Assembly: GCA_024998565.1 (NCBI GenBank)
Contig: JACOEM010000002.1
Span: 62,001-126,000 of the forward strand
Origin: Nitrospira sp.
GTDB taxonomy: Bacteria; Nitrospirota; Nitrospiria; Nitrospirales; Nitrospiraceae
Reading direction: 5' to 3'
DNA: 64,000 nt
The translations under genes and the position numbers were made by a program. Shown here piece by piece: positions 27,977 to 44,775 of the stretch. The first letter of the stretch is position 1. Each line of letters begins with the position of its first letter. The notes below the pieces were generated by a model. It was not told the DNA's origin and searched no databases. It saw only the letters and a program-made list of their open reading frames with translations.

Positions 27977-28663
27977 GTGAACGAGATCATGAACTGGATT
28001 GCGATTTGGGTGACGTTCAAGCTGGCTGCTTCCACGGCGCTTGTCCTCATGATCGTCGGCCTCCCGATCGCCTATTGGGTGAGCTTTTCGCGCCGGCGCT
28101 GGAAATTCCTCGTGGAGTCGGTGGTGGCACTGCCCTTGGTGCTGCCGCCGACCGTGCTGGGATTTTATATTCTCGTCGCCATCGGGCCGCACAGCCCGCT
28201 CGGACGGTTTTACAACGAGCTCATCGGGCATCCGCTGCCCTTTACCTTCGAAGGGCTTCTGCTCGCCTCCATTCTCTATAGCCTCCCGTTTGCCGTGCAG
28301 CCGTTCGCTGCGGCGTTCGAGCAGGTGGATCGGCGGTTGATCGAAGCCTCCTGGACGCTGGGCGTGTCGAAGCTCGGCACGTTCTTCAAACTGATCGTGC
28401 CTCTGTCTAAAGCCGGATTGCTGACCGGTGCCGTGCTGAGTTTCGCCCATACGATGGGAGAGTTCGGAGTCGTCTTGATGGTCGGAGGAAACCTGGAGGG
28501 TGAGACGCGCACTGTGTCCATCGATATCTACGATGAGGTGCAGGCCTTAAATTATGCCGGGGCTGCCAAGACGGCGCTCTTTCTCTTAGTCGTCTCCTAT
28601 GCCATCTTGCTCCTCGTGTATGCGGTCAATCGTAATGTGTGGGCAGCATGGCCGCAGAAATAA
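27977..28663 (+). CDS. modB: molybdate ABC transporter permease
   Basis: This 228-residue inner-membrane permease has five to six hydrophobic helices and the cytoplasmic EAA loop (EASWTLGVSKLGTFFKLIVPLSKAGLLTG), which docks to ModC. LPLVLPPTVLGFYIL and FAHTMGEFGVVLMVGGN are diagnostic for ModB. The start is GTG 27977 or ATG 27989. Its end overlaps the modC start by 16 bases. Confidence 0.95.
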   Translation: MNEIMNWIAIWVTFKLAASTALVLMIVGLPIAYWVSFSRRRWKFLVESVVALPLVLPPTVLGFYILVAIGPHSPLGRFYNELIGHPLPFTFEGLLLASILYSLPFAVQPFAAAFEQVDRRLIEASWTLGVSKLGTFFKLIVPLSKAGLLTGAVLSFAHTMGEFGVVLMVGGNLEGETRTVSIDIYDEVQALNYAGAAKTALFLLVVSYAILLLVYAVNRNVWAAWPQK

Positions 28664-29742
28664 GCATCGACCTCGTCAAAACCTTTCCCGGCCGTCCTCC
28701 GATTCGGGCGCGCATTGCCTATCCGGTCGAGGCTTCGACTGTCTTAATCCTCTTCGGTCCGTCAGGCTCGGGAAAAACGACGATCCTTCGATCGGTGGCC
28801 GGGCTGGAATGGCCGGAAGAGGGCACCATTCAATTTGTGTCGCGCACGTGGCTGGATACCGCGTCAGGGGTCAGGGTGGCGCCGCAAGATCGTCACATCG
28901 GCTACATGGCGCAGGACTATGCGCTCTTCCCGACCTACACGGTGGCGGGAAACATCGGGTATGGCCTCCACCATCTCTCCGCCCAGGATCGCAAAAAGCG
29001 CGTCGATGAGATGGTGGAGTTGTTCCAGCTGCGTGGACTGGAGAATGCCAAACCGCGAGAGCTGTCCGGCGGACAGCAACAACGGGTGGCCCTTGCGCGC
29101 GCGGTGGCGCCTCGACCGTTGTTGCTGTTGTTGGACGAACCCCTTTCCGCATTGGATGCGCCGACGCGGGTGCATTTGCGTGATGAACTGCGGAGTCTGC
29201 TGAAACAGCTGGCGCTGCCGTCGATCATCGTCACGCATGATTGGACCGAAGCCCTCACCCTCGGCGATGTGATGGCTGTCATCAGTGCGGGGAACGTGCT
29301 GCAGGTAGGCCCGCCGATCGAGGTGTTCAGCCGGCCTCAAAACGCGGATGTTGCGCGTGTCGTGGGGATTGAAACCGTTGTGAAGGGGCGGGTGGTTGGA
29401 TCCTCGGACGGTATGGTGCAGGTGAGCGTGAACGGGACCAGGTTGACCGCCGTGGAAGGTGAATCGGCAGGCCCCGATGTGTTCGTGTGTATCCGGTCGG
29501 AGGATGTGGTGCTGGAACGTGGGCAATCCACTGCGAGCAGCGCGCGGAATCACCTGGCCGGGACCGTCATCTCTGCCACGGTGCTTGGGGCATTGGCGCA
29601 AGTGACGATCGATTGTGGATTTCCGCTCGTCGCCATGGTCACTCGTTCGACGGTCGAAGAATTCGGGTTGTCATCCGGCGTGCCAGTCGTGGCCGCGATC
29701 AAGGCGGGTTCGGTCCATCTGGTATCGAGGCAGAGCGACTAG
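28648..29742 (+). CDS. modC: molybdate ABC transporter ATPase
   Basis: The protein has 364 residues. The ATPase domain has Walker A GPSGSGKTT, Q-loop MAQDY, signature LSGGQQQR, Walker B LLLLLDEP and the switch His in VTHDW. The C-terminal part (about 230-364) is a pair of TOBE segments that bind molybdate and regulate the transporter. It is the last gene of the rightward operon. ATG 28648 lies inside modB; an in-frame GTG at 28639 is possible. Transcription probably ends in or after the repeat that begins at its stop codon. Confidence 0.95.
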   Translation: MAAEISIDLVKTFPGRPPIRARIAYPVEASTVLILFGPSGSGKTTILRSVAGLEWPEEGTIQFVSRTWLDTASGVRVAPQDRHIGYMAQDYALFPTYTVAGNIGYGLHHLSAQDRKKRVDEMVELFQLRGLENAKPRELSGGQQQRVALARAVAPRPLLLLLDEPLSALDAPTRVHLRDELRSLLKQLALPSIIVTHDWTEALTLGDVMAVISAGNVLQVGPPIEVFSRPQNADVARVVGIETVVKGRVVGSSDGMVQVSVNGTRLTAVEGESAGPDVFVCIRSEDVVLERGQSTASSARNHLAGTVISATVLGALAQVTIDCGFPLVAMVTRSTVEEFGLSSGVPVVAAIKAGSVHLVSRQSD

Positions 29743-29962: not shown

Positions 29963-30712
29963 CTAAAACGCACCGGTGATGCTGGTACCGAATTTCTCTC
30001 GCACGATGGGCGTCGCTTCTTCGATGTTCAGCTTCTTTTGGAGGACATGGGCCACTGATCGCATTTTGTAGAGTCGCGGCTGATCGGTTTTCCCCTGTTC
30101 GGTGACCAACACGTCTGCCACGCAGAGGTACAGACTGTCGTGGTTCTGTTCCGGTGGTGCCATCCCCGGATAACCGCCCCTGCCGCTCATGGCCATCCGC
30201 ATCATGGCATTGAGGTCCGGCGCCGCGCCGCCTGCCATCGCCATTCCGCGTATCGCTTGCAGATTCATCCCGCCACTCCCTGGTCCGCCGAACATGCTGC
30301 CCAGGGCATCCATATCGAGCCCGCCAGCGCCGGCGAGCGGGGTGCCTCCACTCCCGATCCCCGCACCGAATCCGGCCCTGGCGACCATTTCCGGTCTGAC
30401 CCCCTCTCCCGCTTTGTGGCAGTACACCACCTGGGTCTGCAGCCAGTAGGCAGCAGCAAGGGGATCGTTCACGACCTGGTATCCCTTGGCCATCAGCCTC
30501 GCGGGGATATCTGCAGGGGTCGCGTGCTGATTCTCAGAGGTATTGCGGATTTGCACATAAATGCTACGTGCGGTACTGGGTGGGAGGAGGATGGAGGTGT
30601 CGTTGACTAATCCGGAGCGCAAGATGTTGCTGCAGCCGGTGAGCAACAGCAGCGCAACAAGCCATCCGCTCGCGATACAAGGAGAGAGGTGTCTGGTGAC
30701 TCGCCTGGTCAT
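29963..30712 (-). CDS. TraT-like outer-membrane lipoprotein (copy 1)
   Basis: This 249-residue protein has a signal peptide and lipobox (LLLLTGCSN). TraT family features are ILLPPSTARSIYVQIRNTSEN, IPARLMAKGYQVVNDPLAAAYWLQTQVVYC and the C-terminal VLQKKLNIEEATPIVREKFGTSITG. TraT proteins are exposed outer-membrane lipoproteins linked to surface exclusion and serum resistance. Between the two conserved parts lies a Gly/Met-rich stretch with about a dozen Met in 60 residues, replacing the usual Gly-rich hydrophobic segment. It follows the second TraT paralogue at 10 bases and lacks its own clear ribosome binding site, so coupling is likely. Confidence 0.82.
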   Translation of the reverse strand: MTRRVTRHLSPCIASGWLVALLLLTGCSNILRSGLVNDTSILLPPSTARSIYVQIRNTSENQHATPADIPARLMAKGYQVVNDPLAAAYWLQTQVVYCHKAGEGVRPEMVARAGFGAGIGSGGTPLAGAGGLDMDALGSMFGGPGSGGMNLQAIRGMAMAGGAAPDLNAMMRMAMSGRGGYPGMAPPEQNHDSLYLCVADVLVTEQGKTDQPRLYKMRSVAHVLQKKLNIEEATPIVREKFGTSITGAF

Positions 30713-30722
30713 CGAGGGGTGC

Positions 30723-31442
30723 TTAGAAGTGGCCCGCCACTGCCGCGCTCAATCGCTGCTGCACCAATGGAGTCGCTTCCTGCTCATCAAGCTTCTTCTG
30801 GTACACGCTGGCCGCCAGCCTGGTTTGGTAGACACCGGCTGGAGGCGTTGTCCCCGGTGGAGGAACCGGCAGCGTTCCGCCCGTTCTTGCCAGCTCCGTA
30901 ATCTGGAGATCGGCCACACAGGCGTAATTGATGTTGTCATTGGCATCGGGCCGTGACGGTCCGCCGAACATATTGCCTACGGCATTCCCGAGTCCTTCTG
31001 CTGCATCGAGGCCCATTCCTGCTGCGCCTCCTATGAGGGCGCCCTGCGGGCCTGCCATGCCGGCCATCCCCGTCAGCCCATGGAGCCCCGACATGATCGA
31101 GCTGCCGATTCCTGAGCCATAGCCGCCTGCGACCAGGTCTTCAACCGGCAGTTCGACCTTGGTTTGATTGCAATAGACGATATTGGTCAGCACGACATAC
31201 GCCGCCGCCTGGGGATCTTGAACAACCTCATACCCTTTGAGATTCAGCCGTGCTCTCAGATCGTGGAGCGACACAGCTTGATTGTCTGACGCGTTCCGAC
31301 TCTGGAGAAAGACGGTTCGCGCCGTCGATGGCGGCAGCATGAGGCTGTTACTGGCCAGTAAGTCGGTATCCCGGACGTTGGCTGCACATCCGGTGGAGAG
31401 GAGGATTCCTGCCAACAAGCTGCGGAAGAAGCCTGCGGTCAT
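30723..31442 (-). CDS. TraT-like outer-membrane lipoprotein (copy 2)
   Basis: This 239-residue paralogue of the downstream gene has a lipobox LLSTGCAAN, then LMLPPSTARTVFLQSRNASDN, LRARLNLKGYEVVQDPQAAAYVV and the C-terminal SVYQKKLDEQEATPLVQQRLSAAVAGHF. Its middle is the usual Gly-rich membrane segment (GSGIGSSIMSGLHGLTGMAGMAG), closer to true TraT than copy 1. ATG 31442 has GGAAAG upstream; the frame to 31526 has no ribosome binding site. It is first in a two-gene operon. Confidence 0.84.
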   Translation of the reverse strand: MTAGFFRSLLAGILLSTGCAANVRDTDLLASNSLMLPPSTARTVFLQSRNASDNQAVSLHDLRARLNLKGYEVVQDPQAAAYVVLTNIVYCNQTKVELPVEDLVAGGYGSGIGSSIMSGLHGLTGMAGMAGPQGALIGGAAGMGLDAAEGLGNAVGNMFGGPSRPDANDNINYACVADLQITELARTGGTLPVPPPGTTPPAGVYQTRLAASVYQKKLDEQEATPLVQQRLSAAVAGHF

Positions 31443-31954
31443 CTGAGCTTTCCAGGACGTGCCACCACACGTAGGAGTGAGGGGTAGTCGCGGCGCGATT
31501 CTAGGTGAACGGATCAGAGGTTTCAATCAAGAAAATGAAGATTCCGTCAAAAAAATCTCTCCCCAAATTCTGTGGATATCTCTGTTGATAGTCACCCGGT
31601 TGACCGCGAATAGACCCGCTAATTCATGCCTCGCACCAGGTTGCCTATTTATTGAGCATAGAGAATGATGACTGCCAGGACCACAATATCTAGTAGTGGC
31701 TCTCTTATGTGTATGTATTAGCATTCATATTCGTCCAGGACTCCAGGTGTTTTGAAAATGAGCTGTGGATAGTGGCTTTATTTTTTTTGACCATCCATAT
31801 GGCTCTTGACTTATGCACAGAAGGTTTTCGTTTCTGAGGAAATTGCACAGGCTCGGATCGCAAAAACCGCACTGGAAGAGGCCGCCAGAATAGTCAAGAA
31901 AGATGATAGGCAGGTGCTTGACAATGGATCAATTTATGTGTAACCATCGGTTAC
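31443..31954. other. 512-base AT-richer region between divergent TraT and S24 genes
   Basis: This is mostly non-coding. The part nearest the S24 gene contains a short frame (31806-31943, TTG start, 45 residues, no ribosome binding site) with protein-like composition, listed separately. The rest has no recognisable gene, RNA or repeat. Confidence 0.5.
31806..31943 (+). CDS. short open frame upstream of the S24 regulator, doubtful
   Basis: This is a 45-residue frame from TTG to TAA, with acidic/basic helical composition (SEEIAQARIAKTALEEAA, then KKDDRQVLDNG). It lacks an ATG and ribosome binding site and runs into the operator of the next gene. It may be a gene remnant or a leader frame; I do not recognise it. 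Confidence 0.2.
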   Translation: MTYAQKVFVSEEIAQARIAKTALEEAARIVKKDDRQVLDNGSIYV

Positions 31955-33889: not shown

Positions 33890-35434
33890 ATGAAGACGAT
33901 GGCAAAAGAACCCCTGCAAGTATTGGCATTGGTGGGGGCAATGGTGATGATCTCCGGGTGCATGATCAAGCCCTATGTGTTGACCGACGAGGATGTCCGG
34001 ACCCGCGCCACCAATGACCTTCAGATGGTGTCGACGCTTCGGGAGCCGCTGTCCGGTCCGATCGATCTCTATGAAGCCATCGCGCGTGCCTTAAAATTCA
34101 ATCTGGACGCCAAGGTGAAGGCCATGCAGGCGCAGTTGGCGCATCAGCAGCTGAACGTGGCGCATTACACCTTGTTACCGCAGCTGTCGGCGAACGCGGG
34201 ATTTGACGGACGCAATTCCTACAGCGGAGGCGGCGCGCAATCACTCGTTGATGGTCGGCCCGTCCTCGAGCCCTTTACGTCATCCGATAAGAACGTGGTG
34301 TCGGGCAATCTCGCGCTGAGTTGGGACGTGCTGGATTTCGGTCTCTCCTATGTGCGCGCACAGCAGGCAGCCGATAACGTCATGATTGCCGAGGAGGAGC
34401 GGCGGCGGATTGCGGTACGCCTCGTCCAGGATGTCCGGAGCGCCTACTGGCGGGCGGTCAGCGCGGAACGGGTGCTCTATCGGGTGAAATTTCTGGATGA
34501 GTCCGTCAACAAGGCGTTGGAGCGCGCACAGCAAATCGTCGATAAGAAATTGCAGACGCCCTTGACCCCGCTCAACTATCGCCGCGATCTGCTGAACATT
34601 CAGCGTGAGGTGCAGCGCCTGTACCGTGAGCTGAGTACGGCACGAGTTCAGCTGGCTTCAATGATGGGGCTGCCTCCGGGAACCGAGTACGACCTGGTCG
34701 TGCCTCAGCGGGCGAGCACCGTTCCGGTGGTCGATCTGGATACCGGGCGGATGGAGGAACAGGCGTTGTTGCTTCGCGCCGAGCTTCGCTCCCTCGACTA
34801 TCAAAAGCGGATCAATGCGAAGGAGGCGCGGGCCGTCTTCCTGGAAATGTTTCCCAACTTGAAGCTGAGTGTCGGCGGGTATTACAGCAGCAACAGCTTC
34901 TTCCTCTATCAAAACTGGCTGGGGTATGCCTCTCAGCTCAGTTGGAACCTCCTGTCGGCGTTTCGCGTACCGGCCAAACTCAAGGCAGTGGAGGCGCATC
35001 GCCAGGTGTTGGATGCCCAAAGTCTCGCGCTGACCATGACGATCTTGACCGAGGTGCATGTCGGCGCGCTGCAGTTCGCCCAGGCGAGCCAGGAATATCT
35101 CAATGCCAGGAGTTACCACGAGACGCAATTGGCGATTACCGACCATACCAAGAACCTGTGGCTCACGAAGAGTACCAACGACCTGACCTTCATTCGGGAG
35201 CGAGTGAATGACGTCCTGGCTGAAGTCCGCATGGACAGCGCGCAGTCCGGCGTCGAGTCGGCCTATGCCACGTTGATGGCGTCGATGGGCGAAGATGCCG
35301 CGCCGACCGGCACCGACGGGCAGAGTGTGGCCGCCCTTGCCGTTGAACTGAGGAAACAGCGGGTGCCTGCCGTCGACACGGTGTCGGAGTCAGGAAGGAG
35401 GCTGGAGTCCCATGCGATCCCATTGGCCGATTAA
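33890..35434 (+). CDS. TolC-family outer-membrane efflux lipoprotein
   Basis: This 514-residue protein has a signal ending in a lipobox-like MVMISGCMIK and two TolC-type repeats. The first has IDLYEAIARALKFNLDAKVKAMQAQLAHQQLNVA and a beta-rich segment; the second begins near QALLLRAELRSLDYQKRINAKEARAVFLEMFPNLKLS. TolC proteins form trimeric channels across the outer membrane and periplasm for type I secretion or efflux. I chose the ATG at 33890, next to the signal peptide; an ATG at 33845 and a longer frame are less likely. It leads a four-gene operon and overlaps the HlyD-like gene by 23 bases. Confidence 0.88.
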   Translation: MKTMAKEPLQVLALVGAMVMISGCMIKPYVLTDEDVRTRATNDLQMVSTLREPLSGPIDLYEAIARALKFNLDAKVKAMQAQLAHQQLNVAHYTLLPQLSANAGFDGRNSYSGGGAQSLVDGRPVLEPFTSSDKNVVSGNLALSWDVLDFGLSYVRAQQAADNVMIAEEERRRIAVRLVQDVRSAYWRAVSAERVLYRVKFLDESVNKALERAQQIVDKKLQTPLTPLNYRRDLLNIQREVQRLYRELSTARVQLASMMGLPPGTEYDLVVPQRASTVPVVDLDTGRMEEQALLLRAELRSLDYQKRINAKEARAVFLEMFPNLKLSVGGYYSSNSFFLYQNWLGYASQLSWNLLSAFRVPAKLKAVEAHRQVLDAQSLALTMTILTEVHVGALQFAQASQEYLNARSYHETQLAITDHTKNLWLTKSTNDLTFIRERVNDVLAEVRMDSAQSGVESAYATLMASMGEDAAPTGTDGQSVAALAVELRKQRVPAVDTVSESGRRLESHAIPLAD

Positions 35435-36197
35435 TTCGATTGTCGCACTGACGATCTTCTGCACGGCGGTGGCCCTTCCGCAGGTCGGCTGGCCGAAGGA
35501 CGACCGGCCCGTCCAGCTGATGCGGAGTGTCAACGGCGCGTTGCGTGGCATTGTGAAGGCCAGCACGCAGGCCGTGCTCTATTCCCAGATTCAGGGGCGG
35601 ATCAGCCAGATCCCGGTGAAGGAGGGGCAGCGGTTCGAGAAGGGTGCCACGCTGGTCGCAATCGACTGCGACAAGTATCGTGCGGAATTAGCAGGGGCGC
35701 TGGCCGAGCATGAGGCCAAGGATAAAACCTTCCAGAACAACAAAGAACTCACCAAACTCAATGCCGTCAGCACGCTTGAATTGGAAATTTCCGAAGCCGA
35801 GGCGAAGAAGGCCGTCGCGGCCATTCGCCTGGCCGAGATCAACGTGCGGAGCTGCCATATCGCGGCGCCGTTTTCCGGCCGCGTCGTGGCGGTCATGGTC
35901 AATGAGCATGAAAACGTCTTCCCCAACGACAAGCTGCTCAGTCTCCTCGATGACACCAGTCTGGAGATCGAGTTGGTGCTGCCCTCCTCGACCTTAGCCT
36001 GGCTCAAGCGGAAGTCACCGTTCACCTTCACCATCGACGAGACGCATCGGGAGTATCCGGCGAAGGTGAAGGAAATCGGGGCGAATGTCGATCCCGCCAG
36101 CCAGACGGTCAAGGTGGTGGGCAGCTTCGGGGCCCTCCCGGCCGATGTGCTCGCCGGGATGAGCGGCACGGCGCAATTTGCCTCGGGACAACCGTAA
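35412..36197 (+). CDS. HlyD/RND-type periplasmic adaptor
   Basis: This 261-residue protein has an N-terminal export signal (INSIVALTIFCTAVALPQ), then the barrel-sandwich halves GRISQIPVKEGQRFEKGATLVAIDCDKY and IAAPFSGRVVAVMVNEHENVFPNDKLLSLLD around a short alpha-hairpin, and a beta-barrel. It is shorter than RND adaptors (about 350-400) and lacks their C-terminal domain. It should link the TolC-like channel to an inner-membrane partner. It is followed after 4 bases by the GAF-HlyD gene. Confidence 0.88.
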   Translation: MRSHWPINSIVALTIFCTAVALPQVGWPKDDRPVQLMRSVNGALRGIVKASTQAVLYSQIQGRISQIPVKEGQRFEKGATLVAIDCDKYRAELAGALAEHEAKDKTFQNNKELTKLNAVSTLELEISEAEAKKAVAAIRLAEINVRSCHIAAPFSGRVVAVMVNEHENVFPNDKLLSLLDDTSLEIELVLPSSTLAWLKRKSPFTFTIDETHREYPAKVKEIGANVDPASQTVKVVGSFGALPADVLAGMSGTAQFASGQP

Positions 36198-36201
36198 CCC
36201 T

Positions 36202-37566
36202 ATGGCGACATCCACCCAACCGAGCGCACAGGAACTCGCGACGCTGGTCCATCTGGCGACCCTCACCCATTTGGAGGCGCAGATCCGTGTCGCGAAGACC
36301 GTCCAGGAACTGCAGTTCATCTCCGTCAATGAGACCCGTCGGCTGGTTCCCTATGAACAGGCCTATCTGCTGAGTCATGCCGGTGAAGCTGCGGGCGTCT
36401 CCCGAGTGATCTGTGCGTCCAGCGTGGCCGTGGTGGAACGCGATGCGCCGATGATTCGCTGGTTGGAGGAGATGGCTCAGGCTCTGAGGCACGCACACCC
36501 GGGGGATGAACCGGTGACCGTCACGGAGGAAATGTGCCCCGACTCCTGCCGCGAGGGATGGCGCGAGCATGTCAGGGGCCATGTCCTCTGGTGTCCGCTG
36601 AAACACCCGGATGAAACGGTGTTGGGTTTCTGGTGGCTCGAGCGGGACTATCCCTGGGAGGAGAATGATCGGGCGATTATGCACCGGCTTGCGGGGAGCT
36701 TCGCCTATGCCTGGAAGGCCGTGGCGACGCGCCATCGAACCTGGTCCGCGAGGATCAAAACGCCCTCGGTGTGGTTGCTGGCTGCAGCGGTTGTTGGGGC
36801 GCTGTGTTTGCCGGTTCGCGTGTCGACCGTGGCGCCGATGAAAGTGATGGCGAAGGAGCCGACGATTGTGAGCGCGCCGATGGACGGAGTGATTGCGGAG
36901 GTCCTGGTGCCGCCGAATACGGTGGTCACGCAACATCGGCCGCTGTTCCGCTACGAAGACACGAACCTCCGCAATCAGTTCCGGGTCGCGGAGAAGCAAT
37001 TGGCGGTGGCGCAGGCCGAACATGCCCAGGCGATTCAAGGCGGCTTTGCCGATCCGCACCGAAAAGCCGAGGCTCCGCTCAGAGCCGCCGAAGCGGCGTT
37101 AAAGGAGACAGAGCTGACCTATGCCCAGGAGATGCTGGCGCAGGTGGAAGTCCGTGCCCCGCAGGAAGGATTGCTGCTGTACAGCGACAAAGCCGACTGG
37201 GTCGGGAAGCCGGTCTCCGTCGGCGAACGGATCATGGATATTGCCGATCCGCGTCGCATTGAGTTGCGAATCGATCTCCCTGTGAGTGACGCTCTCCTGC
37301 TACGCGAAGGCGCCGATGTCGTAGCGCTCTTCGACGCGCTCCCGCTGGAATCCTTCGGGGCGACCGTGAGTCACGCGAGTTACCATGCGGAGGTGTTGCC
37401 CGGAGATACGTTGGCGTATCGGATCACGGCTGAATTGGCGCTTGCCGATCCCCGCATCCGCATCGGCTGGCAAGGGTCGGCGAAGGTGTATGGAGAACAG
37501 GGCCTGTTGGCATTCCTGTTGTTCCGCCGTCCGCTCATGGCCTTGCGTCAACTGGTCGGAGTGTAG
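36202..37566 (+). CDS. GAF-like domain - TM - HlyD adaptor fusion
   Basis: This 454-residue protein has a cytoplasmic GAF-like domain at about residues 15-175 (SVNETRRLVPYEQAYLL; LWCPLKHPDETVLGFWWLERDYPW), one membrane segment (about 188-205) and a periplasmic HlyD-type biotinyl-lipoyl-like domain (VSAPMDGVIAEVLVPPNTVV; VRAPQEGLLLYSDKADWVGKPVSVGE) with a hairpin between. GAF domains usually bind small ligands, so export may be gated from the cytoplasm. ATG 36202 is preferred over 36178, which lies within the previous gene. It is 3 bases ahead of the M50 gene. Confidence 0.87.
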   Translation: MATSTQPSAQELATLVHLATLTHLEAQIRVAKTVQELQFISVNETRRLVPYEQAYLLSHAGEAAGVSRVICASSVAVVERDAPMIRWLEEMAQALRHAHPGDEPVTVTEEMCPDSCREGWREHVRGHVLWCPLKHPDETVLGFWWLERDYPWEENDRAIMHRLAGSFAYAWKAVATRHRTWSARIKTPSVWLLAAAVVGALCLPVRVSTVAPMKVMAKEPTIVSAPMDGVIAEVLVPPNTVVTQHRPLFRYEDTNLRNQFRVAEKQLAVAQAEHAQAIQGGFADPHRKAEAPLRAAEAALKETELTYAQEMLAQVEVRAPQEGLLLYSDKADWVGKPVSVGERIMDIADPRRIELRIDLPVSDALLLREGADVVALFDALPLESFGATVSHASYHAEVLPGDTLAYRITAELALADPRIRIGWQGSAKVYGEQGLLAFLLFRRPLMALRQLVGV

Positions 37567-37569
37567 CCG

Positions 37570-39708
37570 ATGGCCGGCCTGTCCTCAGTGTCCCCGCCCC
37601 AAGAACGCACCTTGCCGCCGCTGAGAAAGAACCTGCAGTTCCTCCGCGGCGCGCCCACGCCGGAAGGGGTGCCGACCTGGACGATCGTCGATCCCGTTCG
37701 CAACAAATATTTCCAGATCGAGTGGCAGGTCTATCAGCTCCTCCAGCGCTGGTCCTGTGGCACGGTGGAAAAACTCGTCGCGGTGGTCCGGCGCGACACC
37801 ACCTCCCGGATCCGGGCGGAAGATGTCGAAGACTTAGTGCGGTTCTTGTACGCCAACAGTCTGACGGAGCAATCGGCCAGCGGGCGGGTCAAGGACTACG
37901 TCGAGCAGGAGGTGGCACGTCATCAGGCCTGGTGGCAGTGGCTGTTGCATCACTATCTCTTCGTCAAAGTTCCGCTGATACATCCGCATCGTTTTCTGCG
38001 CGCCACGTTGCCCTTGGTGGCGCCGCTCTATACGCCCATGGCGGCGTGGCTGTTCGGAATGATCGGTGCGACCGGTTTGTTCCTGGTGGGACAGCAATGG
38101 GACACCTTCTTGTCGACCTTCCTGCATTTTTTCACGTGGCAGGGGGCACTGATGTACGGCGTGGTGTTGTGTGTCGTCAAGGTCGTGCATGAATTGGGGC
38201 ATGCCTATACCGCAACGCGATTCGGGTGCCGGGTACCCACGATCGGGGTGGCCTTGATGGTGATGATGCCGGTGCTCTATTCGGACATCAGCGACGCCTA
38301 TCGGCTGAGTTCGAGGCGGAAACGTCTGTGGATCGCCGGAGCCGGGGTCGTAGCCGAACTGGGGCTCGCTGCGGTCGCAACCTTGTTGTGGGGATTCCTG
38401 CCGGATGGGGCCATCCGGAGCGTCGTCTTCGTGGCGGCGACGACCAGCTGGGTGATGAGCCTGGCGGTCAACCTCAACCCATTCATGAGGTTTGACGGCT
38501 ATTATCTTCTGGCCGATGGACTGGGAATTCCGAATCTTCAGGACCGGGCCTTCGCATTCGGGCAATGGCGGATTCGTGAACTGTTGTTTGCGCCAGGCGC
38601 GCCTCCGCCCGAAGCGGTCGGGCAGTCCAACAGGCGGATCCTGATCGCCTATGCCTGGGGTATCTGGCTGTACCGGCTCGTCCTCTTCACCGGGATTGCG
38701 CTGGCCGTCTATCACTATTTTTTTAAAGTGCTCGGCCTCCTGCTGTTTCTGGTCGAAATCGTCTTCTTTATCGGTCTGCCGATCTGGCGGGAACTGACGA
38801 GCTGGTGGAGTCGCCGTGCTGCCTATGCGTCGACGGGCCGGTTTGCCGTCACGATGACGGTCGTCGCCGCGATGCTGTTGCTCGCCTGTCTCCCATGGTC
38901 CAGTCGTGTCGCGATCCCAGGGGTGTTGCAGGCAGGGTCCTATGCAACCATCTATCCTCCGGCGCCGGGGCGGATTGCGTCGGTGTCGGTGCATGCAGGG
39001 CAGCCTGTACGAGCGGGTGACACCTTGCTCGTACTCGAAAACCCGAAATTAGCCAAGGAGGCCAGGTTGGTGCAGACCCAGGTCGAACTGTTGGATTTCC
39101 GGCTGCAGCGTCAGGCCGGGTATGCAGAGGATCGGGTGCAGGTTCCGGTGCTGGCCGAATCGCTACGGTCCAAGCTGGCCGAACTGGACGGGGTGACTGA
39201 GAGGCAACAACGTCTCGTGCTGCGGGCGCCGATCGATGGCGTGGTGGTTGATCAGGCCGATTCGCTCTATCCCGGCCGATGGATCAATGAGAAGCTGCCG
39301 GTCGCCTACGTGGTGAATCCCGGAACAGCGATCGTTGTGGCCTTTGCGCCGGTAGACGATCTAGGGGGTCTGGCGGTCGGGCAGGAGGCGCGCTTTATTC
39401 CGCACGACCTGACCCGCCAGGCTTCCCGCGCCCGGGTCGCTGAAATTCGGGACGTGGACGAACGGGATTTTCCCGTTCCCTATCTGGCGTCCATCTATGG
39501 CGGCGCGGTGCCCGTACGAAAAGATTCGCAGGGGCGGTTGTGGGCGGAGCAATCGGTCTATCGCGTTGAACTTGAAGTATTGGATGATGATTTCAATCCC
39601 GGCCAGGCTGTGACCGGGCTACTCCACGTCATTGGTAAGCCCCAGAGCCTGGCCGCGCGCGTGTGGGATCGTATCGTGGCGGTGATGATCCGGGAAAGCG
39701 GTTTCTGA
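37570..39708 (+). CDS. M50-type membrane zinc protease fused to an HlyD domain
   Basis: The protein has 712 residues. The N-terminal 110 resemble a PqqD-like winged helix (FQIEWQVYQLLQRWSCGTVEKLV; AEDVEDLVRFLYANSL). The membrane core has the zinc site HELGH (207-211) and the second M50 motif NPFMRFDG (303-310) among several helices. The C-terminal third (about 440-700) is a periplasmic barrel-sandwich (IYPPAPGRIASVSVHAGQPVRAGDTLL; RAPIDGVVVDQADSLYPG). The layout is that of 'peptide zinc metalloprotease' proteins found with HlyD and TolC partners. It may process or translocate a peptide or protein. No ABC ATPase is present in the operon, which is unusual for an exporter. Confidence 0.88.
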   Translation: MAGLSSVSPPQERTLPPLRKNLQFLRGAPTPEGVPTWTIVDPVRNKYFQIEWQVYQLLQRWSCGTVEKLVAVVRRDTTSRIRAEDVEDLVRFLYANSLTEQSASGRVKDYVEQEVARHQAWWQWLLHHYLFVKVPLIHPHRFLRATLPLVAPLYTPMAAWLFGMIGATGLFLVGQQWDTFLSTFLHFFTWQGALMYGVVLCVVKVVHELGHAYTATRFGCRVPTIGVALMVMMPVLYSDISDAYRLSSRRKRLWIAGAGVVAELGLAAVATLLWGFLPDGAIRSVVFVAATTSWVMSLAVNLNPFMRFDGYYLLADGLGIPNLQDRAFAFGQWRIRELLFAPGAPPPEAVGQSNRRILIAYAWGIWLYRLVLFTGIALAVYHYFFKVLGLLLFLVEIVFFIGLPIWRELTSWWSRRAAYASTGRFAVTMTVVAAMLLLACLPWSSRVAIPGVLQAGSYATIYPPAPGRIASVSVHAGQPVRAGDTLLVLENPKLAKEARLVQTQVELLDFRLQRQAGYAEDRVQVPVLAESLRSKLAELDGVTERQQRLVLRAPIDGVVVDQADSLYPGRWINEKLPVAYVVNPGTAIVVAFAPVDDLGGLAVGQEARFIPHDLTRQASRARVAEIRDVDERDFPVPYLASIYGGAVPVRKDSQGRLWAEQSVYRVELEVLDDDFNPGQAVTGLLHVIGKPQSLAARVWDRIVAVMIRESGF

Positions 39709-39942: not shown

Positions 39943-42900
39943 ATGTTCAATCTCTTCAAGAGGCTGAGACCTAAGCCGGCGGAAGCCCCACCGGCGTCGC
40001 AATCTGCCGCTCCGTCCACATTCAAACAGTCGCTCCTATCCCTCGAGCAACGGTTGATGTTTGACGCGGCGGCTGCGGCGACCGCGGCCGAGGTGCAATC
40101 CGAACAGGTGGCTCAAGATCAGGCCGAGGCGGCGGTCTCCTCGGAGGGGACTGGCGAGAGTACGACTCCTGAGCAGCAGGAATCGCAGGAGCTACTCAGC
40201 GCAATTGGTTCCTATAGTCCCGGCGAATCCTCGACGGAAGTGGTTTTCGTCGACCCCACGGTGCCGGATTATGAAGCTCTGCTCGCGGGCATGGGGCCCA
40301 ATGTGGAGGTCGTTGTGCTGGATGCCTCCCGAGACGGGGTCGAGCAGATCGCCGAGTCGTTGACCGGGCGATCGGGCATCGACGCCATTCATCTGATTTC
40401 GCACGGCGACGCTGGAACATTGCAATTGGGCACCGGCACGTTGAATGCCGAATCGATGTCGACGCGTTACGCGGACGAGTTCACAACGATTCAGCAGGCC
40501 CTGTCGGAGCAGGCTGACATTCTGGTGTACGGCTGTAATTTTGCCGAGGGGGATCTCGGCCAGGCGGCTGTGTCCCGGCTTGCTGAACTGACCGGAGCCG
40601 ACGTGGCCGCGAGCAGCGACAGAACCGGCCACATCGATTTGGGCGGCGATTGGAAATTCGAAACCCAGGTTGGATCGATCGAAACCGACCTTGCGATCAC
40701 CGATGCCGCGCAGATGGACTGGAAGGGGATCCTGACGACCGAGACTGTCGGCGACCAATTCTCCTCAAGTTCTTACGACAATCACGATGGGACTCAGAAG
40801 TGGGCCTCAGATTGGTCCGAAACCGATGCCGGCGGCGGTGGGGCAAGCGGCGGGGATGTGCATGTCGCTTCATCACAACTGAGGATCGACGCCGGTTCCG
40901 TGGGAAACCAAGCTTCGCGGCAGGTCGATCTGTCAGGAACGAGCGGCGCAGTCCTCACATTCGATTACACCAACTCGTTGTCGGGCTCCGATCAAATCGA
41001 GATTCGCGTGTCAGCCGACGGAAAGACGTATACCACGCTCACCGACGGCGTCTTCTCCCCTAAGTCGAATGCCGGAAGCGGCACCGTCAAGCTCGACATT
41101 TCCGGTTATGCCTCCGCGAGTACGACGATCCAATTTCTCGTCACCGGGGTGGGCGGGGGCGATTGCCTGTACGTCGATAACGTGCAGGTCAGCTATGACA
41201 CCGGCGCCGCGAACAGTGCACCGACGATCAGCAGCAACGGCGGTGGAACGACGGCGTCGGTCACGGTCGGGGAGAACAGCACGGTCGTCACGACCGTCAC
41301 GGCTTCCGACGTTGATGCAGGGCATACCCTAGGCTATTCGATCGCCGGCGGAGCAGACGCAGATCGATTCACCATCAACAACAGCACGGGCCAGCTGAGT
41401 TTCGTCTCGGCGCCCAGCTATGAAGCCCCGGCGGACAGCGGCGGGAATAACGTGTACGACGTCACGGTGCAGGTGTCTGACGGCCAGGGCGGCACGGATA
41501 CCCAAGCCATCGCCGTGACAGTGGCAAACGTCAATGAGGCACCGACAGACCTGGCCTTGTCGGCGAACACGGTGGCGGAGAATGCGGCCAATGGCACCGT
41601 CGTCGGCACCGTGAGCGGCAGCGATGTGGATACCGGCGACACCAGGACGTACTCCCTGACCGACAACGCCGGCGGCCGCTTTGCGATCAACGGCAGCACG
41701 GGCCAGATCACCGTCGCCAACCGATCGCTCCTCAATTACGAGAGCGCCACCAGCCACAACCTGACGGTGCGAGTGACGGACAGCGGCGGGCTCACCCATG
41801 ACGAGACCTTTACCATCAACGTGACGGATGTCAATGAAGCGGCGCCCAGGATCACCAGCAATGGCGGGGGGGCCACAGCCCTCATCAATATTGCGGAGAA
41901 TGCCACGGCGGTCACCAGGGTCACTGCCTCCGATGCCGATACGAGGCAAACCCTGGCCTACTCGATTGTCGGAGGGGCCGATGCCGCCAAGTTTGCGATC
42001 AACAGTAGCACTGGTGCCTTGTCGTTTGTGTCCGCCCCGAACTACGAGGCGCCGACCGATAGCGGCGGTAACAACACCTACGATGTGACCGTCCAAGTGT
42101 CCGACGGAAGCGGCGGCGTGGACTCTCAGGCCATCAGCGTGACCGTGACTGCTGTGAACGAGAGGCCGACGGACCTGAGTCTGTCGGCGAACACAGTAGC
42201 GGAGCACGCGGCCAACGGGACCGTGGTGGGCACGGTGACCGGGAGCGACCCTGACGCCGGTGACACGAAGAGCTACAGCTTGACCAATACGGCGGGGGGG
42301 CGGTTTGCAATCAACCGGACGACCGGCGCCCTCACGGTCGCCAACAGTACCTTGCTGAACTACGAAGCGGCGACGAGCCATGCCGTGACCGTCCGGGTGA
42401 CCGATCGGGGCGGCCTGACCTACGACGAGACGTTCACGATCAACCTGACGAACGTGAACGAGGCCCCCACCGGGACCAATGCGACCGTCACGATCACCGA
42501 AGATACGTCGCACGTCCTCACGGCGGCGAATTTCGGGTTCAGCGATGTGGATGCCGGCGGTGCGCTGAGTGCGGTGCGGATCGACACGCTGCCGACGGCC
42601 GGGACCCTGACCCTCTCGGGCACGGCGGTGACGGCGGGCCAGGTGATCACGACGGCGGACCTCGCGGCGGGCCAGCTGGTCTTTACCCCGGCGGCCGACG
42701 CCAACGGGACCGGCTATGCCCGCGTGACCTTCTCGGTGCGCGACAGCACCAATCTGTACGACTCGACGCCCAATACGCTCACGGTCAATGTCACCGCCGT
42801 CAATGATCGGCCGACGGACCTGAGTCTGTCGGCGAACACAGTAGCGGAGCACGCGGCCAATGGGACCGTGGTGGGCACGGTGACCGGGAGCGACCCCGAC

Positions 42901-44775
42901 GCCGGTGACACGAAGAGTTACAGCTTGACCAATACGGCGGGGGGGCGGTTTGCAATCAACCGGACGACCGGCGCCCTCACGGTCGCCAACAGTACCTTGC
43001 TGAACTACGAAGCGGCGACGAGCCATGCCGTGACCGTCCGGGTGACCGATCGGGGCGGCCTGACCTACGACGAGACGTTCACGATCAACCTGACGAACGT
43101 GAACGAGGCCCCCACCGGGACCAATGCGACCGTCACGATCACCGAAGATACGTCGCACGTCCTCACGGCGGCGAATTTCGGGTTCAGCGATGTGGATGCC
43201 GGCGGTGCGCTGAGTGCGGTGCGGATCGACACGCTGCCGACGGCCGGGACCCTGACCCTCTCGGGCACGGCGGTGACGGCGGGCCAGGTGATCACGACGG
43301 CGGACCTCGCGGCGGGCCAGCTGGTCTTTACCCCGGCGGCCGACGCCAACGGGACCGGCTATGCCCGCGTGACCTTCTCGGTGCGCGACAGCACCAATCT
43401 GTACGACTCGACGCCCAATACGCTCACGGTCAATGTCACCGCCGTCAATGATCGGCCGGTAATCACCGCCAACAGCGGGAGCAGCTTGGCCGAAGGGGGC
43501 ACCGACACGATTACGAGCGCAGAGCTTGCGGCGGTGGACGTGGACAACTCTGCCGCCCAGATCAGATTCTCTGTCGGGACCGGTCCTGCCCATGGTCGTC
43601 TGGAGTTGACGACCAGGCCGGGGGTGGCGCTGGCGACTTTTACGCAGGCTGATCTCGCGGCCAACCGCCTGGTCTATCGTCACGATGGATCGGAAACGTT
43701 GAGCGATCGCTTTACGTTTACGGTGAGCGACGGGGCGGGAGGTTCGGTGGGCACGACCACAATGACGCTGACGATCACCCCAGTGAACGATGCGCCGACC
43801 ATCATCAGCAATGGAGGAACGGCGACCGCCTCGATCAATGTTGCGGAACATGTGACCGGCATTACGGTCGTAACCGGCGCCGATGTGGATCTCCCTGTGC
43901 AGGCCTTGACCTACTCCATCAGCGGCGGAACGGATCAGGCGCAGTTTACGATCGACGCCTCGACCGGTGCGCTGAGTTTCGTTGCCCCTCCTGATTTTGA
44001 AGCGGCCGCTGACGCCAATGGCGACAATGTGTATATCGTGCAGGTCCGTGTCACCGACAGCCAGGGCGGCACGGCGATGCAAACCATTCAGGTGAGGGTT
44101 ACGGATGGGGCGGAGGCGCGCCCCTCCGGCCCGGCGCTTCCTCCCTCTCTCATTCCGATGCCTTCGGTCCAGGCGGGCACATCCGCTCAGCCTCATGACG
44201 AACCACGGTCCTTCACAACGCAACAGGAGCCGGTGAATGCGGTGTCCATGAATGGGACTGATCTCGCCGGGACGATGAGCCCCTATGCCGGCAGCATGCC
44301 GCCGCGCGTCGCGCCCCATTCAGGCGATGTTCATCATGAGGACGAGCCGCCAGTCGCGTCACGATCTGTTCAGTCGGATGACAGGGAGCCCCGGAATTCA
44401 TCCCCGATCTCATCCACGGATGCGATCGAGGCGGGCAGGGATGGCGATTCTGGGCCACAGCCCTCGGCGAGTGAATTGGTACTGAATAAATTGGATGAAA
44501 TGATCTTGTCGCTGCGGGAGGCGGTCGCTGTGGACCGAGAGCCGCAGTCGTTGATGGCTCAGGTGACTGCGTTGACGGGGACGACTCTCTCTGTGGGATT
44601 TGTGCTGTGGGCGGTTCGCAAAGGAAGGCTCCTGGCCGGTTGCTGCGCAACCATTCCTACCTTGTCGACAGAAGGGCCTGGCCTGGGTCAACACCTTCAC
44701 CCACGGCTCTTGACGCCAACGTCTTCTCCGTCGCAAGGCCCGTCTACCAACCCCTCGTCCGCCTCTTCAACCTGA
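39943..44775 (+). CDS. giant DUF4347 / cadherin-like repeat surface protein
   Basis: This is a 1610-residue protein. The N-terminus has LSLEQRLMFDAAAAATAAE (33-50), a LEPR-XLL-like motif seen on giant exported proteins. A DUF4347 domain follows (about 98-265; VFVDPTVPDYEALLAG, IHLISHGDAG, LVYGCNFAEGDLG). Next come a jelly-roll-like segment and then tandem cadherin-like domains (VNEAPT or VNDRP joints) to about 1385. A Pro/Ser-rich linker and a hydrophobic segment followed by basic residues (LSVGFVLWAVRKGR) end the chain. No RTX nonapeptides are seen. It lies 234 bases after the TolC/HlyD/M50 operon, so it may be its cargo. Only a weak ribosome binding site is visible. Confidence 0.88.
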   Translation: MFNLFKRLRPKPAEAPPASQSAAPSTFKQSLLSLEQRLMFDAAAAATAAEVQSEQVAQDQAEAAVSSEGTGESTTPEQQESQELLSAIGSYSPGESSTEVVFVDPTVPDYEALLAGMGPNVEVVVLDASRDGVEQIAESLTGRSGIDAIHLISHGDAGTLQLGTGTLNAESMSTRYADEFTTIQQALSEQADILVYGCNFAEGDLGQAAVSRLAELTGADVAASSDRTGHIDLGGDWKFETQVGSIETDLAITDAAQMDWKGILTTETVGDQFSSSSYDNHDGTQKWASDWSETDAGGGGASGGDVHVASSQLRIDAGSVGNQASRQVDLSGTSGAVLTFDYTNSLSGSDQIEIRVSADGKTYTTLTDGVFSPKSNAGSGTVKLDISGYASASTTIQFLVTGVGGGDCLYVDNVQVSYDTGAANSAPTISSNGGGTTASVTVGENSTVVTTVTASDVDAGHTLGYSIAGGADADRFTINNSTGQLSFVSAPSYEAPADSGGNNVYDVTVQVSDGQGGTDTQAIAVTVANVNEAPTDLALSANTVAENAANGTVVGTVSGSDVDTGDTRTYSLTDNAGGRFAINGSTGQITVANRSLLNYESATSHNLTVRVTDSGGLTHDETFTINVTDVNEAAPRITSNGGGATALINIAENATAVTRVTASDADTRQTLAYSIVGGADAAKFAINSSTGALSFVSAPNYEAPTDSGGNNTYDVTVQVSDGSGGVDSQAISVTVTAVNERPTDLSLSANTVAEHAANGTVVGTVTGSDPDAGDTKSYSLTNTAGGRFAINRTTGALTVANSTLLNYEAATSHAVTVRVTDRGGLTYDETFTINLTNVNEAPTGTNATVTITEDTSHVLTAANFGFSDVDAGGALSAVRIDTLPTAGTLTLSGTAVTAGQVITTADLAAGQLVFTPAADANGTGYARVTFSVRDSTNLYDSTPNTLTVNVTAVNDRPTDLSLSANTVAEHAANGTVVGTVTGSDPDAGDTKSYSLTNTAGGRFAINRTTGALTVANSTLLNYEAATSHAVTVRVTDRGGLTYDETFTINLTNVNEAPTGTNATVTITEDTSHVLTAANFGFSDVDAGGALSAVRIDTLPTAGTLTLSGTAVTAGQVITTADLAAGQLVFTPAADANGTGYARVTFSVRDSTNLYDSTPNTLTVNVTAVNDRPVITANSGSSLAEGGTDTITSAELAAVDVDNSAAQIRFSVGTGPAHGRLELTTRPGVALATFTQADLAANRLVYRHDGSETLSDRFTFTVSDGAGGSVGTTTMTLTITPVNDAPTIISNGGTATASINVAEHVTGITVVTGADVDLPVQALTYSISGGTDQAQFTIDASTGALSFVAPPDFEAAADANGDNVYIVQVRVTDSQGGTAMQTIQVRVTDGAEARPSGPALPPSLIPMPSVQAGTSAQPHDEPRSFTTQQEPVNAVSMNGTDLAGTMSPYAGSMPPRVAPHSGDVHHEDEPPVASRSVQSDDREPRNSSPISSTDAIEAGRDGDSGPQPSASELVLNKLDEMILSLREAVAVDREPQSLMAQVTALTGTTLSVGFVLWAVRKGRLLAGCCATIPTLSTEGPGLGQHLHPRLLTPTSSPSQGPSTNPSSASST
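42164..43453 (+). repeat. two tandem 645-base copies inside the giant gene
   Basis: Copies at 42164-42808 and 42809-43453 differ, by my reading, at only three bases, all synonymous and all within the first 120 bases. Each encodes the same 215 residues: one cadherin-like domain plus one Ig-like domain. Recent duplication or gene conversion is implied. Confidence 0.9.

Follow-up and report, generated by a model that had tools for sequence, protein, structure and literature searches.

The stretch of DNA analysed here, which we call the window, comprises 64,000 nucleotides of a Nitrospira sp. genome (contig JACOEM010000002.1, positions 62,001 to 126,000), and our subject is a cassette of four export-type genes within it together with the gene of a giant protein that directly follows. 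The cassette genes lie on a single strand with overlaps of about 20 bases or a spacing of 3 bases, and encode in order a TolC-like channel, an HlyD-like adaptor, a GAF-HlyD protein and an M50-HlyD protein; the gene of the giant starts 234 bases further on (Table 1). A first-pass annotation of the window had already described the four as an export apparatus, with M50-HlyD as the only multi-pass protein among them, and both statements agree with our results, the former from Pfam and TIGR01730 matches and the latter from the hydrophobic segments. What it overlooked are a domain of M50-HlyD that resembles PqqD and the recognition elements (RRE) of ribosomally synthesized and post-translationally modified peptide (RiPP) pathways, the leader-bearing giant as apparent passenger, and a sister cassette with a SecA-like ATPase.

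Table 1. Positions in the window of the cassette genes, the giant gene and their features
Feature	Position	Strand	Basis
TolC-like outer-membrane channel	33890..35434	+	Pfam OEP 5.4e-27
HlyD-like periplasmic adaptor 1	35412..36197	+	TIGR01730 RND_mfp 4.2e-35, 121 bits, cut-off 94.9
Adaptor 2: GAF-like N-terminal domain, C-terminal HlyD domain	36178..37566	+	HlyD_3 2e-10
Adaptor 3 (M50-HlyD): PqqD/RRE-like domain, M50 intramembrane protease, HlyD domain (predicted)	37570..39708	+	Pfam, alignment, AlphaFold2 (AF2) model
PqqD/RRE-like domain (predicted), M50-HlyD residues 23-95	37636..37854	+	AF2 topology; profile match to sister domain
HELGH zinc motif, M50-HlyD residues 207-211	38188..38202	+	H207, E208, H211 invariant, 57 sequences
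Second protease motif NLNPFMRFDG, residues 301-310	38470..38499	+	N301, R307, D309, G310 invariant, 57 sequences
Giant passenger (candidate), 1,610 amino acids: leader, DUF4347, cadherin/Big_9 repeats	39943..44775	+	DUF4347 1.1e-59, Cadherin 8.8e-60
Leader motif LEQRLMFDAAAAAT, giant residues 34-47	40042..40083	+	L-E-x-R-x3-D-x-A-x3-T invariant, 21 sequences
DUF4347 domain of giant, predicted caspase/CHAT-like fold	40240..40734	+	PF14252 201 bits, cut-off 24.6
C-terminal hydrophobic segment TLSVGFVLWAVRKGRLLAGC of giant	44584..44643	+	Weak; below the transmembrane threshold used

Make-up of the cassette and the giant

The reading frame of the TolC-like protein is open from 33713, and by inspection its likely start is the Met at 33890, after which a hydrophobic stretch ends in a lipobox-like ISGC; residues 66-91 of the frame form a hydrophobic segment. 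Adaptor 1 has a signal-type N-terminus (residues 4-28 hydrophobic), and adaptor 2 has a single hydrophobic segment, residues 193-221, between its GAF-like and HlyD domains. The GAF domain announced by the first-pass annotation is supported indirectly, through homologues: there is no Pfam GAF match in the window copy, and PF01590 is matched by 9 of 48 homologues of adaptor 2 at E <=0.1 (best 2.4e-6).

The M50-HlyD protein matches Peptidase_M50 (5.9e-7) and HlyD_3 (7.3e-16), is 96% identical to the M50 protein of Candidatus Nitrospira defluvii (L039), and gave an AF2 model with a mean predicted local distance difference test score (pLDDT) of 86. With its HExxH and second Asp motifs and, in the model, a multi-pass core, it has the predicted make-up of an M50 or site-2 protease, and Pfam M50 was matched by 64 of 64 sequences at E <=0.1. 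The modelled M50 part aligns with RseP (Z 10.9, root-mean-square deviation (rmsd) 4.4, 162 aligned), which is a moderate score considering that the protein is helical; MacA aligns with the C-terminal part (Z 17.0, rmsd 4.5, 220 aligned). Judged by sequence profiles, the closest named families are RiPP intramembrane proteases, both scoring below cut-off: daptide_HExxH (NF041824) reaches 170.8 bits over residues 38-402 (cut-off 300) and YydH/LiaK (NF058609) 31 bits (cut-off 225).

The case for a PqqD-like winged-helix domain at the N-terminus of M50-HlyD is likewise indirect. Residues 23-95 are modelled as three strands followed by three helices, and in a single hhalign comparison this domain matched the N-terminal domain of the sister M50 proteins described below (E 1.8e-7, probability 94); 12 of the 12 sister domains match Pfam PqqD at E <=0.1. 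Direct Pfam PqqD matches were obtained for 4 of 39 members of the window type (type 1), with a best E of 0.01, and a fold search with the full M50-HlyD model returned no PqqD-like chain among the matches listed, a list that one domain dominates.

Near the N-terminus of the giant lies a leader motif, which among giants of this type has the consensus LE-x-R-x-M-F-D-A-A-x-x-x-T and usually stands upstream of a DUF4347 domain. The 21 sequences in which its core is invariant were picked by a pattern of motif plus DUF4347, so that conservation at the LExR and D positions is partly built in. As a less biased test, a looser pattern was applied to the 44 DUF4347 proteins whose 5' end is complete, and 41 have it; of the three others, two come from Nitrospirota genomes in which M50 has no match (one of the two genomes is only 74% complete) and one has a LEPR-XLL-like variant. 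Across the 87 loci introduced below, the strict pattern occurs in all 23 DUF4347-like open reading frames (ORFs) against 14 of 657 other ORFs of at least 250 residues, and these 14 are themselves large passenger-type proteins (588-3,308 residues) with LExR-type leaders. The LEPR-XLL model (NF012209, LEPR-8K; cut-off 17) scores the window leader at 14.4 bits and two other type-1 leaders at 15.3 and 16.7, each under the cut-off; the leader at locus L084 gave no match.

The SHG His and YGC Cys of DUF4347 are invariant in the same number of sequences (21), and we assign the domain, on motifs and model, a probable caspase/CHAT-type (clan CD) fold with a His-Cys pair. The AF2 model has a mean pLDDT of 69 overall and is confident in its core only. 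This core gave its best fold match with the structure of Tce1, a Pseudomonas aeruginosa type VI effector (9qpe; Z 12.3, rmsd 3.0, 146 aligned), followed by SAVED-CHAT (Z 9.0, rmsd 3.1, 136 aligned) and Craspase CHAT (Z 8.3, rmsd 3.0, 129 aligned), with weaker matches to caspases. In the accessible text of earlier reports, the DUF4347 of PA0256 is called uncharacterised (PMC8262886) and a DUF4347 protein is listed with others that increase in stationary Burkholderia thailandensis (PMC12322963).

The remainder of the giant is rich in repeats, and in its translation a long repeat block occurs twice, the copies being nearly identical. Segments similar to TLSVGFVLWAVRKGRLLAGC are found in other Nitrospira giants (L039, L046, L048). 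RTX repeats were sought in the window giant, and PF00353 gave no match at E 0.01. Elsewhere in the window lie two adjacent genes for TraT-like lipoproteins (29963-31526, minus strand; Pfam TraT), and genes for a ModB-like permease and a ModC-like ATPase (27977-29742; named by inspection, the ATPase by motif).

Recurrence, pairing with giants and the sister cassette

From the 560 relatives of the window M50 protein that a genome scan yielded, we took the best 80, so that distant branches are under-represented; with six plasmid loci and the window itself this gave 87 loci, 86 of them with an intact M50 part (L063, in which it is truncated, was left out). Genes were called profile-first, longest-ORF calls being wrong in GC-rich loci. 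The cassette recurs in Nitrospira, in Proteobacteria and on plasmids of Azospirillum, Burkholderia, Kosakonia, Magnetospirillum and some E. coli. Sixty-nine loci extend 4.5 kb or more upstream of M50, and 52 of them have TolC, HlyD1 and GAF-HlyD all within 6 kb upstream, the individual counts being 56, 60 and 69; in several Pseudomonas loci TolC is placed after the giant, and in the Phyllobacterium locus (L035) the profiles recognised neither TolC nor HlyD1. The M50 gene of one E. coli plasmid (L034) is present in 24 of 5,426 complete E. coli genomes, at 21 plasmid and 4 chromosomal places; the open frame that holds the DUF4347 of that plasmid is 4,475 residues long.

ATP-binding cassette (ABC), resistance-nodulation-division (RND) and major facilitator superfamily (MFS) proteins are the energised inner-membrane partners of tripartite and type I systems in the accessible part of a review (PMC8277102). 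The first-pass annotation had claimed an apparatus with no ATPase or classical permease, and this holds for the window and also across the relatives surveyed. TolC through M50 form a single run in 62 loci, and in 60 of these every ORF of at least 150 residues within the run is assigned; the two exceptions carry one ORF each, antisense in one and sense in the other. With a motif pattern applied to the 86 loci, no ABC ORF was found inside any cassette; 13 loci have ABC ORFs nearby, on one strand or the other and at scattered distances, the shortest of which is three genes. Between 20001 and 55000 of the window the only ABC ORF detected with the same pattern is the ModC-like gene, which lies upstream of M50 at a distance of about 9 kb. 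A separate ABC exporter lies near the cassette on the opposite strand in L035 and L081, and an RND-like protein, recognised by inspection, is encoded seven genes downstream in L086. No RND or MFS permease occurs in the window gene run, the relatives having been checked for these by clustering of neighbouring ORFs and not by profiles. A regularly adjacent ABC or RND gene in relatives, which the first-pass annotation had named as the finding that would overturn its claim, was looked for and not found (RND by clustering only): there is no systematic case of a displaced ABC or RND gene among the loci.

The clustering covered 548 ORFs of at least 120 residues within 8 kb, and its smaller clusters are partly identified. 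The most widespread neighbour family, judged by length, is the giant (a largest cluster of 22 loci, further clusters of 7 and 3), and the second-largest cluster consists of ABC ATPases (14 loci). No SecA-like gene is present in any of the 87 type-1 loci. Small tail-collar-like proteins are encoded near the cassette in six loci from Kosakonia, Pseudomonas or relatives, and Zooshikella (L037, L091, L097, L100, L111, L113), the Kosakonia protein being annotated 'tail fiber protein'.

The pairing of cassette and giant is also evident at the level of whole genomes. Among 198 Nitrospirota genomes, with at most five candidates scored per genome, 25 have both a type-1 M50-HlyD and DUF4347, 1 the former only, 2 the latter only and 170 neither; the corresponding counts for 149 genomes of the Pseudomonas sivasensis genus are 69, 3, 1 and 76. 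Two genomes with a sister M50 protein only (G143, G133) were counted as having no type-1 cassette, and both tables were subjected to Fisher tests, in which the relatedness of the genomes is ignored. In 23 of 26 Nitrospirota cassettes M50 and DUF4347 are at most 3 kb apart, and DUF4347 is present in 22 of 24 cassette-bearing genomes or records, some of them Pseudomonas, picked from the loci. At the level of sequence we regard the pairing as well supported. One genome (G123) has, in addition to an intact M50 gene accompanied by a DUF4347 of its own, a decayed second cassette at another place (L184, contig 32, 5914-15366), in which TolC and M50 are in pieces beside a leader-bearing giant.

A sister cassette was found at 17 loci (within L176-L180 and L186-L198). 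Its M50 protein is 26-31% identical to the window type, NCBI names for such proteins including 'PqqD family peptide modification chaperone', and it is accompanied by GAF-HlyD or HlyD and by a SecA-like ATPase of about 660-700 residues (SecA_DEAD 1.3e-100); several loci add a further HlyD, TolC, a DUF3467 gene and a giant. The ATPase is present at 16 of the 17 loci, in two pieces in L189, and is missing from that of Thalassospira (L198). All eight Nitrospirota genomes with a reported sister M50 have two SecA matches each, and in five of these the second SecA is in the M50 cluster. Likely close relatives among the loci are L186 with L195 and L192 with L194.

Six of the seven sister passengers scanned with NCBIfam score above the LEPR-XLL cut-off (22.8-34.1 bits), two of them being named LEPR-XLL proteins by NCBI, and annotated coordinates put such passengers at up to about 12,700 residues (on a Pseudosulfitobacter plasmid). 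The Alisedimentitalea passenger, whose start may be misannotated, gave no LEPR match, and that of L179 has the motif by pattern only. The large ORF extends beyond the stretch or beyond the start of the record in L190, L192, L194 and L197 and past the locus end in L177 and L178; no passenger was read in L180, L186 and L189, and the candidate in the Nitrospira locus L176 is a 715-residue ORF, not a giant.

A candidate export route and its alternatives

Because a cassette with no pump adjoins a giant with a shared start motif in many unrelated bacteria, we are led to suggest an undescribed export route for giants, and we think it rather probable that the cassette is a leader-guided, protease-gated, TolC-dependent exporter dedicated to the adjoining giant. 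PqqD-like domains are leader-peptide binders in RiPP pathways, and presumably the PqqD/RRE-like domain of the M50 protein would bind the LExRxMFDAAxxxT leader on the cytoplasmic side. The giant might then enter the envelope leader-first, through or beside the membrane part of the M50 protein, driven by a Sec-type motor, which would be the SecA-like ATPase in the sister version and possibly the single housekeeping SecA in that of the window; since the sister cassette has its own SecA-like ATPase, we consider such a motor a better guess than proteolysis as the source of energy. The ideas of the first-pass annotation that proteolysis might power export and that the GAF domain might gate it stay conjectures. 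During or after entry the M50 site may cut the leader, and the HlyD, GAF-HlyD and M50-HlyD adaptors together with TolC would form the conduit to the surface. Outside, the DUF4347 domain, with its predicted caspase/CHAT-type fold and intact His-Cys pair, might process the giant or a target, and from the model a caspase-type role for it seems plausible.

Several observations weigh against this proposal of a dedicated exporter. Its main weakness is that the window genome, which has one full-length M50-HlyD and one DUF4347, has one SecA match and so offers no dedicated motor candidate, and three other Nitrospirota genomes (G121, G003, G059) have two SecA matches each. The leader shows no evident Sec-type signal: the median of its Kyte-Doolittle maximum is 1.42 (n=36), compared with 2.33 (n=65) for the N-termini of HlyD1. 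This speaks against simple entry by Sec. Nor is the leader a clear transmembrane helix, which would make it an unusual substrate for a site-2 protease. The window M50 protein has no Pfam PqqD match of its own. Of the 86 loci, 35 show the leader motif, 25 have a passenger that is truncated at the 5' end, and 16 lack an adjacent large ORF or lie on a short contig. In the other 10 the adjacent large ORF is complete and lacks the motif; most of these ORFs appear by inspection to be unrelated. Three loci may nevertheless have motif-less passengers: a HrpK-domain protein in L035 (Phyllobacterium), a 492-residue ELWxxDGT protein in L038 (Magnetospirillum), and in L058 (Thiotrichaceae) a 2,956-residue ORF with a signal-peptide-like start downstream of a type-1 M50. 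The cassette genomes of Serratia and Pantoea have no DUF4347. A loose C-terminal pattern, too loose to claim, occurs in 17 of 32 passengers adjoining TolC, so that these proteins may have a C-terminal secretion signal, such as the uncleaved one of type I systems. The accessible text on a Vibrio LEPR-XLL giant reports C-terminal RTX and serralysin domains (PMC10868602), a finding that points to type I secretion for some LEPR-XLL proteins. Apart from these points, the L058 giant can be viewed as a possible exception to the leader rule or as an unrelated neighbour.

Alternatively, export might take place in two steps, with SecA/SecYEG delivering the giant to the periplasm, the leader serving as an atypical signal that the M50 protease removes or recycles, and the adaptors and TolC crossing the outer membrane only. 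The SecA-like ATPase of the sister cassette and the single SecA of the window genome fit such a route as well, as does the signal-peptide-like start of the L058 candidate, and M50 proteases have their site of action within the membrane; however, the leader has no signal-peptide-like hydrophobic core, and periplasmic loading of so large a cargo into a TolC-adaptor conduit would be unusual, and we judge this course of events to be unlikely, if deserving of serious attention. A type I secretion system whose shared ABC transporter is encoded elsewhere would account for the TolC-family channel and HlyD-family adaptor, two hallmarks of type I secretion that the window cassette possesses, and could draw on the loose C-terminal pattern, the ABC exporters near the cassette in L035 and L081 and the RTX-bearing Vibrio giant. 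Yet plasmids carry the cassette into distant hosts, the motif pattern found no ABC ORF within the cassettes and scattered ones near a few of them, the sister cassette has SecA instead, and the window giant has no RTX match, all of which makes the arrangement improbable in our view.

The cassette might also have no part in exporting the giant and instead control its retention on, or release from, the surface in the manner of LapG/LapD, with the GAF-like domain of adaptor 2 as sensor and the M50 protein, whose protease motifs are intact, as switch. A TolC channel and three adaptors presumably exceed the needs of a release switch, and no other recurring secretion gene set was recognised near the cassette among neighbour clusters that are partly identified; we give this possibility little credence. 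Profile matches to daptide_HExxH and LiaK could point to a system for the maturation and efflux of a RiPP-like peptide, unrelated to the giant, but these scores fall under both NCBIfam cut-offs (171 against 300 and 31 against 225), no RiPP enzyme was recognised among the partly identified clusters of neighbour ORFs of at least 120 residues, precursors being expected among shorter ones, and giant and cassette co-occur near-strictly, so that a peptide system seems very improbable indeed.

Returning to the dedicated exporter, a wider proposal would be that Gram-negative bacteria have a secretion machine for giants that forms a class apart, with LEPR-type leaders as its export signals. In this machine a fusion of RRE, intramembrane protease and adaptor would stand in for the ABC transporter, and a TolC conduit would be fed by a Sec-type motor (SecA-like in the sister branch; host SecA or something else in that of the window). 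The report of RTX domains in the Vibrio LEPR-XLL giant lowers its probability, and we put it forward tentatively and with some doubt.

Relation to known systems

For giant repeat proteins of Gram-negative cells that have no linked ABC transporter, the cassette represents a testable way out of the cell, whose parts recur together across many lineages and on plasmids: a leader and a domain predicted to bind it, a protease, adaptors of three types and a channel. The SecA-like ATPase of the sister cassette may be a dedicated motor outside the usual role of Sec. If the proposal is true, the LEPR-XLL motif, which is found on some very large bacterial proteins, would gain a function, and RiPP-style leader recognition would extend to proteins as long as about 12,700 residues. 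In the literature, as far as its accessible parts show, LEPR-XLL is named in the giant Vibrio protein (PMC10868602) and elsewhere occurs as annotation, with no function given for the motif. No description of the cassette was found in a literature coverage that leaves out preprints and most subscription papers, and we file it as an apparently undescribed variant of tripartite export.

The systems described for the giant adhesins LapA, SiiE and BapA, as they appear in the accessible parts of two sources (PMC12153261, PMC7730722), are the obvious comparison. The window cassette resembles these type I systems in its TolC-type channel, its HlyD-type adaptor and a single adjoining repeat-rich, surface-type giant. 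It differs in having no ABC ATPase and three types of adaptor, in its fused intramembrane protease with a PqqD-like domain, and in a giant that has a conserved N-terminal leader and no RTX match. With LEPR-XLL proteins (NF012209) the window giant shares the character of a repeat protein with a short N-terminal LExR motif; its leader is of the type LExRxMFDAAxxxT, as opposed to LEPRxLLxAD, and is paired with a cassette that lacks SecA. The RiPP intramembrane proteases (NF041824, NF058609) have the M50 core in common with the window protein, and the daptide model spans most of the N-terminal domain, whereas the window M50 is fused to an HlyD adaptor and its apparent passenger is a giant, not a peptide. 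The sister cassette is similar in its HlyD or GAF-HlyD and PqqD-M50-HlyD proteins, often with a further HlyD and TolC, and in the giant that adjoins it in several loci; it is set apart from the window type by its SecA-like ATPase, by a DUF3467 gene in many cases and by passengers with the canonical LEPR-XLL motif.

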